This document shows positions 7,277 through 63,798 of a DNA stretch of 64,000 nt, piece by piece (the stretch's first letter is position 1; every line of letters starts with the position of its first letter). The notes below the pieces were generated by a model. The model searched no databases, was not told where the DNA came from, and saw only the letters and a list, made by a program, of their open reading frames with translations. Origin of the DNA: Amphibalanus amphitrite (Eukaryota; Arthropoda; Thecostraca; Balanomorpha; Balanidae); NCBI RefSeq assembly GCF_019059575.1, contig NW_024881535.1, positions 372,001 through 436,000 on the forward strand, read 5' to 3'. Position numbers and translations under genes: made by a program.

Positions 7277-8461
7277 TTAACCCGCGCCCCACTGGGGGGG
7301 GGGGCTATTTATAGCCCCCCCTCCCGTTTTTCTGCAATAACTTCCAAACCGCTTGACGTATCGACGCCAAACTTTCAGTACCTTAGGCTGCATCAATTTG
7401 ACACCTTGTGTCAAAATTTGAACTTCGTACCTACTATAAGTCGGCCGGAAATGACGTCAGAGTGACGTCATGTTCGGCCGATTTCGACGCAAAACATTGA
7501 ACCACGGCAATCGCTCCCAAGAGCTCAGTTTTTAAGCTAGATCCAATTTCTTTGCATGAGAGGACTCAGAATAGACTGCACTATCAAACTGCTATCTCGG
7601 ATTTTCGAAATTTTGAAAATTTTGAAAATTTTATATAATAATATCCAAAATTTATATTTTTACATTTTTTTTTTAAGTTTTTGACTTTTCAAAAAAAAAA
7701 CGGAATATATGTGATAGAACGCATTATTATGACTAACTCTAGCAAGTTTTAGCTAAATATCTTCAAAAATGGCCAAGTTTTACGCATTATTGCCAAAAAT
7801 TCACAATTATTAAATTTTCAAATCAATTTTTCAGCACGTATTTGGCATCGTACGCCAATATAAATAGCACCAGCGTGTTCCTGAGCTCAAACTGCATCCA
7901 ATAGACACCTTTTTTTGTTGAAAATTTTTAACTTCAAAATTTGACCTTTTTTGACCTGAAAGTGACCTAACATAAGCTAAATTCGACTCAAAATGACCTC
8001 GAATAACACCGACGACATCAAATTCGAAATCTCTGACCTAAATGGACCATAAAACATGTGTCACGTGACCGACGCATGATATAATATTTTCGTGACCTGT
8101 GATCACCTGACCTTGACCTGAAAATCAAAGTACAAGTTTGGTACCCTCAAGGTAACTAGAGCATCTGTTCCCGAGTGTGTGATCCAAAAATGAGCCTGAT
8201 CTGACTTGTAAGACGGCGGCCAGAGCCCAAAACGTGATCAAGCCAAAATGCTAATAGTTTTTACTTTGACCTGACCTGTGACGTCATCGATGACCTCGAG
8301 GTCAATGAAATTAGGTTTCGCTCGACAGTTTTTCCGGGGCTATCAGACGCCGTTTGAACTTTGACGATCGGCCCAGTAGTTTCGGAGTTAGGAGGGGGGC
8401 TATGAATAGCCCCCCCCCAGTAGGGCGTGTTATGCGCAGACCCCAGTGGGGCGCGGGTTAA
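7277..8461. mobile_element. E1: TTAA-flanked piggyBac-type MITE
   Basis: Starts TTAACCCGCGCCCCACTGG and ends with its exact inverse CCAGTGGGGCGCGGGTTAA; both TTAA copies are included in the span. Left hairpin: G-run, CTAT-TT-ATAG, C-run (about 7294-7322). Right hairpin: G-run, CTAT-GA-ATAG, C-run (about 8394-8420). The right end has a second CCCAGTRGGGCG motif 26 bp inside the first (8418 region and 8444 region). Two TGACGTCA octamers lie at 7452-7459 and 7463-7470 inside a larger CGGCCG-bounded palindrome, and TGACCT/AGGTCA half-sites crowd about 7950-8310. There is no transposase frame, so it must be moved in trans. Confidence 0.92.
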
Positions 8462-9020
8462 TGAAAGCTGACATAATGAACACACGGTACGGACGTAAAA
8501 TAGAGCCCAAGCCACAACGTCACTGTATGAAGGGCATGACATCGCTCCCAGATAATACCGTTCCGTTCCCCACTGGACGCGTGCACTCGCCACTAGCGCC
8601 GTCTGCAGTGCACGAGTATCGATCGCAAATAGTGTTCTCTGCAGGACCCAGGCGGTTTCTCTTACTAATATATGCTTGAGACGCCGACCGTCCAGCACTT
8701 TCACTGTCTGATTTTTACCGCCGACATGTCTGCAGCCCGTGAGAGAATGCAAATAGAAAAGATCGCTTAGCGCGGGGTGATATTGCATATCATTATAATG
8801 TGATGATTAATGAATTTGTTCAGACTACATCGGATGGCTGCGGTTGAGAAACGAAAGAAGAGAAACTGAAGTGCGCGCTCTTAGTTTGCCCCTAGCATGA
8901 GCGCAAATCGAGTTTAATATTCATAAGGATTTTAGGACAAGAAGAGAAGCGTAACCTAACTGACAATCAGTTACACTATTCTTCCATATCTTTCCAATTT
9001 TCTTCTCCTCCCTCTTCCCT
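8462..9020. other. Unique sequence between E1 and a CT tract
   Basis: Nothing recognised. The minus-strand frame 8261-8788 crosses the E1 end and is an artefact of the element terminus. Confidence 0.5.
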
Positions 9021-9139
9021 TCTCTCTCTCTCTCTCTCTCTCTCTCTCTCTCTCTCTCTCTCTCTCTCTCTCTCTCTCTCTCTCTCTCTCTCTCTCTCTC
9101 TCTCTCTCTCTCTCTCTCTCTCTCTCTCTCTCTCTCTCT
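9021..9139. repeat. (CT)n microsatellite
   Basis: About 119 bp of CT dinucleotides, followed by a CCCT/CTTC-rich polypyrimidine stretch to about 9180. Both minus-strand frames across it (Arg-Glu repeats) are spurious. Confidence 0.98.
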
Positions 9140-60630: not shown

Positions 60631-60785
60631 TGTGAGAATGCCTGTGATACTCGAATGTCTGTGAGAGTGCCTGTGATACTCGAATGTCTGTGAGAGTGCC
60701 TGCGATACTCGAATGTCTGTGAGAGTGCCTGCAATACTCAAATGTCTGCGAGAGTGCCTGCGATGCTCGAATGTCTGTGGGAGAG
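60631..60785. repeat. 29-bp minisatellite, about five units
   Basis: CGAATGTCTGTGAGAGTGCC-type units recur at 60652, 60681, 60710 and onward with a 29-bp period and few changes. Minus-strand frames across it repeat a His-Ser-Arg-His-type peptide and are artefacts. Confidence 0.93.
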
Positions 60786-62616
60786 AGCCGGCCGGCACTC
60801 GGCTCTGCCACAAACAGCACATTGTCTCGGTGTCGCTGCAGAGACAATGGACCGGACACCCGACACCTTTCTCCGACTGCCTCCTCCCTCCTCCCCTCCC
60901 TTTACCAGCGCCGTCTCCGACTTTCGTACTGAGGTCTGGAGGGTGGAAGAATCGTCAGACGACTCTCCCCGACACATTGGATCATCTTCTTTTCGTCTTG
61001 TTTTGTTTTAACCGTATCGCATCAATTGTCTTATATTTGTCAACATCCATACCTTTACCTCTAAGCGCTTCCCTACTGCTACTAAAAACACACCTACAGG
61101 TAGGTGTATTTTATGAAGGGGGCGGGCGGTATCCGGCAGGTCTGCCGAATGCCGCCCCCTCCATATCTTTCCTGACGAGCCTATCCCACCAAAGATCAAA
61201 CACACGAGTCCAGGGTTCAGGCAGTTCTATGAACTGATCAGCAATTAGGACCGGGGCGGCGGCGTCGGTGGCGGCGGCGAGGACAGTGCCTATTTGCCCC
61301 GGGGCGGAATATTTGTCTGTCGCACCTGGCCGCCAACGCGGGTCAACTGTTGGTGACGTCATTTCCGCAGCAGACGATGTGGTGGTTGTGTTTGCCCTCC
61401 GGTGGTGCTATCGGAGAGGTGTGTCCATTGGGGAGGGGAGGGGGATGCATCCGGGAAGTTGCGTCAGGTGTCATTTTGGGGATGGGTTTGATATCCTGTC
61501 GATCTTATTGCTGTTGGGCTGTGTAAGTGTTTGGCCTAGGATACCGACTTAATGCAGGAATCTGTTTTCACTGTTCCATTCAGGACTTCACATAACATAA
61601 TTTCGGGCAAGTGTACCGGAACTTTCGTAAATAAACAACCATCGCTATAATGCACAGTCACCTACCAAACGAACCCCAAAATCTTGCTGACACTGTGCAC
61701 ACACCAGTGCACCGGTTGCGCTTTGATGCACGCTGGTTAGTTCCACAGCTCACACCCTCGTCTGTTGACATCGCCCAGCCCCTGCAGCTGCTCTGGTAAT
61801 TCTCCATAGGTCCGCTGGTCGCTGTCAGCTGACAGATGTTGCATCATCACGTGAGGGGACCCGACTCACCGCTGCACGTGCAACTTGGTAACGTGCACCA
61901 AGGTGCGTGGCTTCCCTCTCCCCCACATAGAGAAAATCATCTAAAAAAAAAAAAAAAACAGATTTCGTTGCCTTGTGCAATATGCAATGAGCATTATTCC
62001 AAACACATTCACATGACGTTAGCTCCAAACCGGGCTCAAGTTCGGTTTTCGTCGACCCACAAAATCTCCTGCGAGCATGCGTCGTTGCTAAGGGGAAGTA
62101 ATCCTGGCAGTAGCATTCCACTATTGCATAATCCCAGAGATGTGAGATTCATGGAATGTTTATGAGAGCATGTAGCGAATTTATCGCATTTCTGTAGAAA
62201 TCTAGGCCGATGATATGAGAGTTCAGTGAGCTGACAGGTCTCTCGGTGAAAAATTAGCAAATCGCGCGGTTGCCCCAATATTCATCAGCGCAAGACATCG
62301 CACGAGGAATCAAATGGTGAGCTTCGTGTTTATGCCCGCAAATGCAACGAAAATGAAACCCTCGGGAATGTTTCGATCTACATTTGGTGAAGCAAGATCC
62401 AAAAGCGATAAGGAAAAACATGTTATATAAGAGATTGTAATGCACGGCATTAATGAACTACTTTTTACTGTCGTTAGGGGATCACAGCAATATTAAAAAA
62501 AACGCCCATGACCATCATTTTTAGAAGCAATATTATCAATCTTCGTCCACCTACATAAGCAATGTTTAGACTAAAAACAAAAACAAAATTAAGAATTGCA
62601 ATTCCCTTTTCCGCGT
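60786..62616. other. Unique sequence with one GC-rich hairpin
   Basis: A compound hairpin lies at about 61117-61162 (GGGGGCGG ... CCGGCA-GGTC-TGCCG ... CCGCCCCC). The overlapping frames at 60713-61237 look compositional. A 16-base A-run lies at about 61943. Nothing else is supported. Confidence 0.4.
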
Positions 62617-63798
62617 TTAACCCGCGCGGGGCTGGGGTCTCCAGCCGAACGAGCGGGGCTGGGGGGGGGTAAATTTTACCCCCCCTGTTATCTCCCGAAC
62701 TAATGGTCCGATTTGGAAAATTCAAACGCCAATCGAAAGCTCTCATCACGAACTACTAAAAACATGTACTTAATTTAAAGTTTGAGGTCAAGGTCAAGGT
62801 CAGGTCAAGGGTACAAATTGCAAGTTTCTACAGTATCGGCCTTGCACCGTAGTTGCCGAAGAATGGAGTCATGGACTGAGACTGATCGCCCAAAACGTGT
62901 TCTTAGGCTACCAAGACAATATTTGTTGCATACAATATAATTCAGAGGTCAAGGTCAAGGTCAGGTCAGGTCAGGTCAGGTCACCAAAAAACAAAATATA
63001 GAAAAGGGCATGTGCGACACATGTTTTATGGGTCATTTTACTCATAGAATTCAATAGGCACACTCAATAAGTGATATGGACCACCTCTGGATGAATTTCA
63101 GGTCGAGGTCAGGTCAAGGTCAGGTCAAGTGAGGTCAAATTTTGAAGTTGGTTGTTAAGGCCTAAAAAGGTGTCTATCTGATGCAGTTTTTCACGGCGAA
63201 TCGAATGGTGCTATTTTTGTTTCCGTACGAGGTCTAGAACTTCCAAAAAAGTCATTTTTCAAAAAAATTTGTGTGTCGTGACGTCATAAAATTTTGAATA
63301 ACTCCCACCTTTTTGAACCGATTCTTCTAAAATTTGGTATGTAGGTGCACATAGACCACTTCTCTGACATATATTCCGGTTTTTTCGATAGACTCAAAAT
63401 TTTGGATTTTATAATGATTTTCCCAAAAAAGTCAGTTTTTTGAAAAAATTTAGGCCAAAATCCAAAATTTTCAAAAAACCGAGATAGCCATTTAATAGAC
63501 AAAGTAAAATTACGTATAACCTTTTTTGTTACGTCTTGATTCCTTTAAAAATGAAGATGTTAGCGGCGTTTGAACTTTTGCCGTTTTTGAGGCGAAAATG
63601 GCGAACATGACGTCACTAAAACGTCAATTTCTCAAAAATTTTCCGACGGATTTCGCTCAAATTTTCAGGGAACATGTCAAATTGATGTAAGAAAAGGTAC
63701 TGAAAGTTTGGCGGCGCTGCGCGCCACCGTTTTTGAGATATCGCAAAAATTCGCGAGGGGGGGTAAAATTTACCTCCCCCCAGCCCCGCGCGGGTTAA
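62617..63798. mobile_element. E10: TTAA-flanked piggyBac-type MITE
   Basis: Ends TTAACCCGCGCGGGGCTGGG and its exact inverse. The left end repeats GGGGCTGGGG 27 bp apart (62628, 62655). Hairpin cores GTAAATTTTAC (left) and GTAAAATTTAC (right) between G- and C-runs. TGACGTCA at 63608-63615, with a decayed partner at 63619-63626, mirrors E1 in reverse. AGGTC arrays at 62785-62812, 62946-62985 and 63100-63140. No transposase. Confidence 0.93.
62946..62985 (+). repeat. AGGTCA/AGGTC tandem array in E10
   Basis: AGGTCAAGGTCAAGGTCAGG continues into four consecutive 5-bp AGGTC units. The first part is made of 6-bp AGGTCA units that create TCAAGGTCA extended half-sites, the form bound by monomeric receptors such as FTZ-F1 in known animals. 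Confidence 0.9.

Follow-up and report, generated by a model that had tools for sequence, protein, structure and literature searches.

Why should transposable elements keep two ends of unequal construction, and keep them the same way round? The question is raised by eleven elements (Table 1) in the window, the whole stretch of 64,000 nucleotides of the Amphibalanus amphitrite genome that was analysed here. A short end consists of a tip, a motif M and a G/C hairpin; at a long end the tip and M are followed by about 20 bp, a second M and then the hairpin. A preliminary description had reported that the second motif occurs at one end only, at spacings of 26 to 30 bp. All 11 elements are present with M doubled at exactly one end each, and the quoted spacings are correct throughout, the pair in E2 being weak and the tip of E1' decayed. 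The one-ended doubled motif is real and extends well past the window.

Table 1. Hairpin-ended elements of the window and selected ends; positions are those of the window.
Feature	Position (strand)	Length (bp)	Left end	Right end	M spacing (bp)	Remarks
E1	7277..8461 (+)	1185	short	long (doubled)	26	nonautonomous hairpin-ended piggyBac-type element
E1 long end	8394..8461 (-)					tip, M, spacer, M, hairpin
E2	12099..13149 (+)	1051	long	short	30	weak pair
E3	14256..15287 (+)	1032	long	short	27	TTAACAC tips
E4	26979..27924 (+)	946	long	short	27	TTAT/TTAT duplication
E5	39512..40512 (+)	1001	short	long	26	
E4'	41354..42303 (+)	950	long	short	27	second copy of the E4 family
E1'	47187..48346 (+)	~1160	long	short	27	
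E7	48625..49819 (+)	1195	short	long	27	
E8	53230..54115 (+)	886	long	short	28	hairpin imperfect at short end
E9	55217..56389 (+)	1173	short	long	28	CTAA/CTAA duplication
E10	62617..63798 (+)	1182	long	short	27	
E10 long end	62617..62685 (+)					TTAACCC tip, M (GGGGCTGGGG), spacer, M, hairpin
E10 short end	63757..63798 (-)					TTAACCC tip, M, hairpin

Eight of the 11 elements are flanked by the TTAA/TTAA duplication of piggyBac; E4 and E9 have the variants listed in Table 1. E1' is decayed at one end: the outermost bases of its doubled end have degenerated, leaving no TTAACCC, and its opposite end abuts TTAT. The termini are of the CCC (CCY) type, except in E3, which has CAC, a tip also reported from bees (PMC10140906). 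The M pair of E2 is poor (best self-match 5/10, at offsets 29, 30 and 33), and in two further E2 copies the stretch from tip to hairpin is 2 bp shorter. At the long end of E10 the hairpin has a TAAA/TTTA stem within its G/C runs. Like MITEs, the elements appear noncoding, have inverted ends and a very high copy number, and are uniform in size, although at 0.9-1.2 kb they are longer than the usual under-500 bp. No stop-to-stop frame of at least 240 aa occurs anywhere in the window, nor did scanning it for Rfam families and tRNAs produce any match, and none of the 116 listed matches to DDE_Tnp_1_7 lies on the window's contig.

Within the window the end pattern matched 24 times, at 12 ends, compared with 0 in 100 shuffles, and genome-wide it gave 29,235 forward matches, compared with 5 for the reversed control; the 81,930 reverse pattern matches overcount ends, because G-runs give several matches per end. 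Ends fitting one pattern, short and long taken together, number 55,962 genome-wide (27,977 + 27,985), and ends with an intermediate gap about 300 (163 + 150, the hairpin gap being set slightly narrower). Pattern scans of IMG/VR and GTDB returned at least 234 loci, with no paired element within 200-4000 bp among the matches listed.

The two kinds of end are sharply separated. The distance from TTAA to hairpin is bimodal: of 85 ends, 41 measure 10-15 nt and the other 44 measure 38-44 nt, with none between. Among 32 hand-sampled long-end types the best M offset is 27 in 23, 26 in seven, and 28 and 29 in one each, giving the peak at 27 that the preliminary description had led us to look for. A doubling detector that was run blind (an exact repeat of at least 6 bases, at an offset of 24-30, close to the tip) fired at 30 of the 34 long ends but at none of the 34 short ones. 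By eye, the M-to-M spacers look alike in several families.

It could be argued that a 27-bp duplication arose separately in each family, by slippage or by a template switch from one G-run to another, and that the hairpins are cruciform or G-quadruplex structures rather than protein sites. G-run length does differ strongly from copy to copy, but the doubling is one-ended, on the same side and constant in length, and T. ni piggyBac is alike without having G-runs there. Moreover, the paired bases within the G/C runs covary too: the inner stem has a mean of 1.9 pairs, compared with 0.39 in shuffled loops (47 loops), the pairing being kept as the letters change. We consider such an origin extremely improbable.

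On contig C1, 54 neighbouring end pairs, built from the first 100 left and the first 100 right places, comprised 53 short/long pairs and one short/short. All 52 same-family pairs (51 called via a 6-of-7 motif match, one via both tips of the autonomous element C44, described below) were short/long, bearing out beyond the window the restriction of the second motif to one end; the remaining two, one short/short and one short/long, were cross-family. The fetched DNA together with the window yielded 35 short/long pairs out of 35 of the same family, and two more computed pairs, one of them short/short, unite different families as judged by their tips. Elements with the second motif at both ends, at neither end or at random spacing were sought, and none occurred in the C1 sample. 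When the subterminal 300-bp stretches of 36 elements were compared, diverged same-strand matches were long-long in 192 cases and short-short in 236, compared with 30 long-short. Long ends thus align with long ends and short with short across families, and the polarity, as had been claimed, is therefore fixed. Internal landmarks also lie at fixed places from the doubled end: paired TGACGTCA sites at 0.84-0.85 of the length in E1, E1' and E9, with a single exact site at that position in E10, and CCATTGACTTATAATGG at 0.64-0.65 in E2, E3 and E5.

The two motif copies had also been said to change together, and they do. Across 32 end types the match of the inner M to its own outer M exceeds that in all 10,000 permutations, and the short-end M matches the inner M of its own long end likewise above all permutations (21 short-tip types, some closely related); these counts are not probabilities, because end types share ancestry, and raw matches are inflated by the G-richness of M and its flanks. 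The own outer M is the best or tied match for the inner M in 23 of the 32 types. In E2 and E4 the outer M is unlike the inner M, which instead corresponds to the motif of the short end; in C44 the motif of the short end is unlike either long-end copy. Recognition by the transposase probably drives this co-evolution. The novelty lies in a large radiation of constant geometry, within which the sequences of M and of the hairpin have changed in step.

Might the doubled end be a passenger by descent from one asymmetric ancestor, without function and alike because the families are young? The subterminal homology points to common descent of both ends, and the visual similarity of the spacers also speaks for such a founder effect. 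It is nevertheless unlikely: M is greatly altered between families, yet its copies have altered together, with a spacing of 26-28 in 31 of 32 types; the layout is common to T. ni piggyBac and to transposases only 38% identical to each other; and seven more distant piggyBac elements in the genome have no doubling at either end.

Comparison with an autonomous relative was possible within this genome. The element C44:1060842-1064816 (3975 bp) has its long end 3' and its short end 5' of the transposase gene, and C527:290214-294184, a 99.2% copy, contains an uninterrupted frame of 674 codons (646 aa from the first ATG). Two further transposases, C33 (38% identical to C44/C527) and C778 (58% identical, with one TGA inside), likewise have a long end 3' of the gene, in which a different M recurs at 27 bp; both ends were seen for one of the three families (C44/C527), and the 3' end only for C33 and C778. 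The C527 protein matches the T. ni transposase 6x67 (E 2e-78) through the cysteines of the C-terminal zinc domain (CRD), and piggyBat with E 3e-30, the CRD lying outside the match. Its Pfam match to DDE_Tnp_1_7 has E 2e-69 with the three catalytic aspartates aligned, and transposases of this DDD type are found in C44/C527, C33 and C778. The terminal parts of E4 are 80-86% identical to C44, and positions 14532-14866, within E3, share 85.7% identity with sequence flanking the 666-codon transposase frame of C33. The piggyBac-type nature proposed for the ends is thus matched by three T. ni-related transposase families in elements with such ends. For four other transposase stretches, L269, L273, L275 and L276, a look for TTAACC tips of their own found none, and their ends are therefore absent from all counts.

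Other piggyBacs, tipped with TTAACCCATTAGTGCCC, are common in the genome and might move the elements, the likeness to T. ni-type ends then being convergent. They have numerous transposases with open frames, share TTAA and CCC, and in 4 of 7 elements (L264, L265 and L266, and by eye L271) have a palindrome beside the 5' tip. However, they have neither G-hairpins nor a doubled motif (0 of 14 ends), and it is T. ni-type transposases instead that occur in elements whose ends match and whose flanks are homologous, so we regard this as very unlikely. Four piggyBacs were rejected as candidate partners, their tips having no hairpin or doubling; the 604-aa one among them is inserted inside a hairpin element.

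The ends of T. ni piggyBac (LE35/RE63; structures 6x67/6x68) have TTAA, a CCC tip and, at one end, a core repeat followed by the palindrome; at the other, core repeat, spacer, core repeat and palindrome follow one another, with a spacing of exactly 27 and the doubled end 3' of the gene. All of this is shared here, where the transposase is related over its length, CRD included. In the published right end AAAGATAATCAT is repeated at 27 bp and the palindrome lies at 44 rather than 16 nt; a 31-bp spacer has been placed at the 3' repeat (PMC10140906). The core repeat doubled at 27 bp with a displaced palindrome at the 3' end only is likewise found in the barnacle-borne transposase elements, for C33 and C778 as judged by the 3' end. 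Since layout, 27-bp duplication and polarity are those of the T. ni right end, the elements are of a known kind, and the earlier comparison with piggyBac's asymmetric ends is sharpened accordingly. By contrast, the M and palindrome sequences are unrelated to those of T. ni, the palindrome here being a G6+/C6+ hairpin, and there are about 56,000 matching ends, in samples mostly nonautonomous and of more than 20 types. The bat element piggyBat (Myotis lucifugus) belongs to the same superfamily and has a repeated left-end motif with a palindrome and an asymmetric tetramer (PMC11707139, PMC13405395), but its motif copies are described at bp 11, 55 and 99, its right end as having no matching palindrome and its CRD as differently folded. 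As described, it is without piggyBac's one-sided doubled repeat; conversely, its 44-bp steps are not found here, where the step is 26-28 bp with a single inner copy.

The interpretation as piggyBac-type elements with fixed polarity and co-evolving motif copies is supported. Our fuller explanation, to which we give a probability of roughly 85%, is that these are MITE-like relatives of T. ni-type piggyBac with CRD-bound hairpins and a second dimer at the long end. M would be the recognition repeat of the transposase's core domain, and the G/C hairpin a palindrome bound by a dimer of the CRD; as far as sequence can tell, the CRD cysteines align with those of 6x67 and the hairpins are palindromic. 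At the short end the palindrome comes directly after the tip motif, matching the T. ni left end, whereas the extra M of the long end, 27 bp inward, shifts it to about 40 nt from TTAA, like its counterpart in the T. ni right end. By analogy with published structures, a catalytic dimer would sit on both tips, while the inner M and the palindrome at the long end would be occupied by a second dimer that is non-catalytic, the synapse being assembled from one long and one short end, and phasing may hold the spacing near 27 bp.

The one-sided doubled repeat of the piggyBac right end has been called puzzling (PMC7351741). In cells, the same source reports, wild-type transposase needs one long and one short end to complete transposition, and activity is halved by adding 5 bp or mutating the second repeat. 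Asymmetry is not an absolute need, because excision by the wild-type enzyme is still possible with two long ends and equal ends are tolerated by a hyperactive mutant (PMC7351741). Here, more than 20 end types and three transposase families, in a group of tens of thousands of ends, repeat that spacing and polarity while sequences change, which argues that the arrangement is functional and old. With thousands of ends of two kinds, one of each per element checked, the genome offers a natural test bed for this lopsidedness: a comparative data set bearing on why piggyBac needs unequal ends, on base contacts from covariation and on non-cross-reacting piggyBac systems. Somewhat short of even odds, and so put forward tentatively, is the idea that a short and a long end with 27-bp phasing are an ancestral, conserved T. 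ni-type assembly code in which geometry alone is constrained, the many drifted transposase/end pairs here forming largely orthogonal systems. If so, the recognition code might be read from this natural set of transposases and ends.

Among the titles and abstracts listed on piggyBac MITEs and asymmetric ends, none presents such an arrangement outside T. ni, and no paper containing three typical tip strings was found. The CMITEs of Acropora may be likened to the elements by description rather than by sequence: although they are about 100 bp long, and are described in that account with neither hairpin nor one-ended doubling, they too are piggyBac-type MITEs with TTAA, CCC and tips that vary more than the interior (PMC2872659).

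The 11 hairpin-ended, piggyBac-type elements of the window are each 0.9-1.2 kb long, together about 11.8 kb of the 64 kb, and are flanked by 4-bp duplications that read TTAA, with TTAT in E4, CTAA in E9 and one decayed end in E1'. Their tips read CCC, except for CAC in E3, and each end has a G-run/C-run hairpin nearby. At the short end the order is tip, a short motif (M), hairpin; at the long end M is doubled, and the order is tip, M, about 20 bp, M, hairpin. The coordinates and spacings given for the 11 elements in the preliminary description are correct. Doubling is weakest in E2, and at the long end of E1' the outer tip has decayed. 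AGGTCA/TGACCT half-sites are numerous by eye in E1-E10, where TGACGTCA sites occupy conserved fractional positions; the two resemble nuclear-receptor and CREB sites.

Coordinates of individual features (L, fetched DNA stretches; C, contigs)
Feature	Location	Remark
TTAT/TTAT duplication	window 26979-27924	noncanonical target
CTAA/CTAA duplication	window 55217-56389	noncanonical target
(GA)n/(CT)n microsatellites	window 34948-35486, 5872-6329, 8921-9306	long
Single TTAA common to neighbouring hairpin elements	L251:3172-3175, L262:5549-5552, L279:215-218	
Element with both tips of the C44 element	C1 1375075-1376023	949 bp, without room for the gene
Nested hairpin element at TTAA	C778:130624-131708 (L282, L283)	in long-end flank, splitting transposase-bearing element
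604-aa piggyBac with TTAACCCATTAGTGCCC tips	L263:213-4031	within a hairpin element

A scan of the genome (807.55 Mb, 2644 contigs) gave 29,235 forward matches to the end pattern against 5 with the reversed control, and 27,977 and 27,985 matches to the anchored pattern against 0 and 1. If two ends make one element, this is roughly 28,000 elements, 30 Mb or 4% of the genome. End lengths on contig C1 are bimodal: among the first 100 left and first 100 right ends listed, there are none of 54 to 63 on the left and none of 53 to 67 on the right. Among 85 ends taken from the window and from 20 regions, the hairpin lies 10-15 nt from TTAA in 41 cases and 38-44 nt away in the other 44. Ends with intermediate gaps number 163 and 150 genome-wide, in a scan where the permitted hairpin gap was slightly narrower than in the anchored one; most of the nine such matches listed resemble, by eye, short ends whose C-runs are long or broken.

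The C1 sample contains 54 neighbouring pairs (46 left ends have no partner among the listed right ends), 53 short/long and one short/short. M agrees at 6 or 7 of 7 bases in 51 pairs, and one further pair carries both tips of the autonomous element C44; all 52 of these same-family pairs are short/long. The two leftover pairs, one of each kind, are ends of different families. A second sample (20 regions of 10 kb at the first C1 sites, four transposase regions and the window), which shares some elements with the first, gave 36 short/long among 37 computed pairs; the short/short pair and one short/long pair again join different families, and the remaining 35 are all short/long. E8 and E1', missed by the pairing script, are short/long by eye. 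The TTAAs common to neighbours suggest that the younger element inserted at a TTAA bordering the older one, and L279 has two short ends head to head.

When 36 elements were oriented doubled end first, their subterminal 300-bp stretches gave 192 long-long, 236 short-short and 30 long-short diverged same-strand matches, and internal landmarks lie at a constant fractional distance from the doubled end. The best inner-motif offset, searched from 15 to 35 in 32 distinct, hand-picked long-end types, is 27 in 23, 26 in seven, and 28 and 29 in one each. Between the inner M and the outer region of the same end, 6.5 of 8 letters agree (permuted partners 4.5, sd 0.16), and this own match is best or tied in 23 of the 32. 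Short-end M matches long-end inner M at 5.7 of 8 (permuted 2.7, sd 0.31) in 21 short-tip types that include close relatives, and hairpin loops at the two ends of one element agree at 0.76 versus 0.50. In all three comparisons the observed value exceeded that of every one of 10,000 permutations. The inner copy in E2 and E4 agrees with the short end and the outer has diverged; in C44 the long-end copies are alike and the short-end M differs. Inside the G/C runs the stem is extended by several pair types (mean 1.9, against 0.39 for shuffled loops; 47 loops); the palindrome is kept despite changes of letters.

A search of the genome with Pfam DDE_Tnp_1_7 gave 116 scored matches. One of the stretches fetched for these matches, C44, holds a 3975-bp element with the short hairpin end on the 5' side of its gene and the long one on the 3' side; over about 270-400 bp, segments of its terminal regions share 80-88% identity with E4/E4'. 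The C44 frame is lost near the C-terminal zinc domain (CRD), whereas the 99.2% identical C527 copy is complete at both ends and its 674-codon frame is uninterrupted. Relatives of this transposase were predicted to have their long end on the 3' side of the gene too, and both that were examined, C33 (38% identical) and C778 (58%, with one TGA in frame), do. In each, M is doubled at 27 bp and is the family's own; on the 3' side, no further hairpin tip except the nested element was seen between long end and gene. Over 335 bp the C33 flank is 85.7% identical to the E3 interior; over 134 bp the long ends of C778 and E2 are 78% identical. Pair counts, polarity matches, permutations and transposase relatives thus bear out both the observation and the reading of the preliminary description: one-ended doubling and fixed polarity in piggyBac-type elements, with covarying copies of M.

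The arrangement itself is already known from Trichoplusia ni piggyBac, which has the same one-ended 27-bp doubling and polarity. The C527 protein matches its transposase (6x67) over most of the length, CRD included (E 2e-78). In the T. ni sequence given by PMC7846023, the right end alone repeats AAAGATAATCAT, exactly 27 bp apart, and the palindrome lies 44 nt from TTAA at the right end and 16 nt at the left. PMC10140906 gives spacers of 3 bp at the 5' repeat and 31 bp at the 3' repeat, and therefore the polarity agrees with the barnacle elements. According to PMC7351741, a 17-bp insertion and a duplication are what distinguish the right end from the left; in cells, the wild-type enzyme excises and integrates only with one end of each kind, two right ends allowing excision only, while a hyperactive enzyme accepts equal ends. 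Activity falls by about half when 5 bp are added or the second repeat is mutated, and the paper proposes that a second dimer sits at the right end. Mobility, binding and a two-dimer mechanism are what we infer for the elements here. For piggyBat of Myotis lucifugus, the C527 match (E 3e-30) does not cover the CRD, and the end arrangement differs (PMC11707139, PMC13405395). What is new is that the arrangement known from T. ni recurs exactly, polarity and spacing included, in a very large family with diversified recognition sequences, that a G/C hairpin serves as the palindrome, and that there are transposase-bearing partners.

Another seven piggyBac elements in the genome have different tips and motif doubling at none of 14 ends; their transposases, where compared, are about 23-28% identical to that of C527. 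In L264, L265, L266 and L271 a palindrome adjoins the 5' tip alone and the other end is different, i.e. short-end geometry at one end. The 604-aa type has 11 nearly equal-scoring matches among the DDE_Tnp_1_7 set. Separately, the nuclear 18S and 5.8S rRNA genes (L284, C2475, 18S to 5.8S) look unusually divergent by eye.
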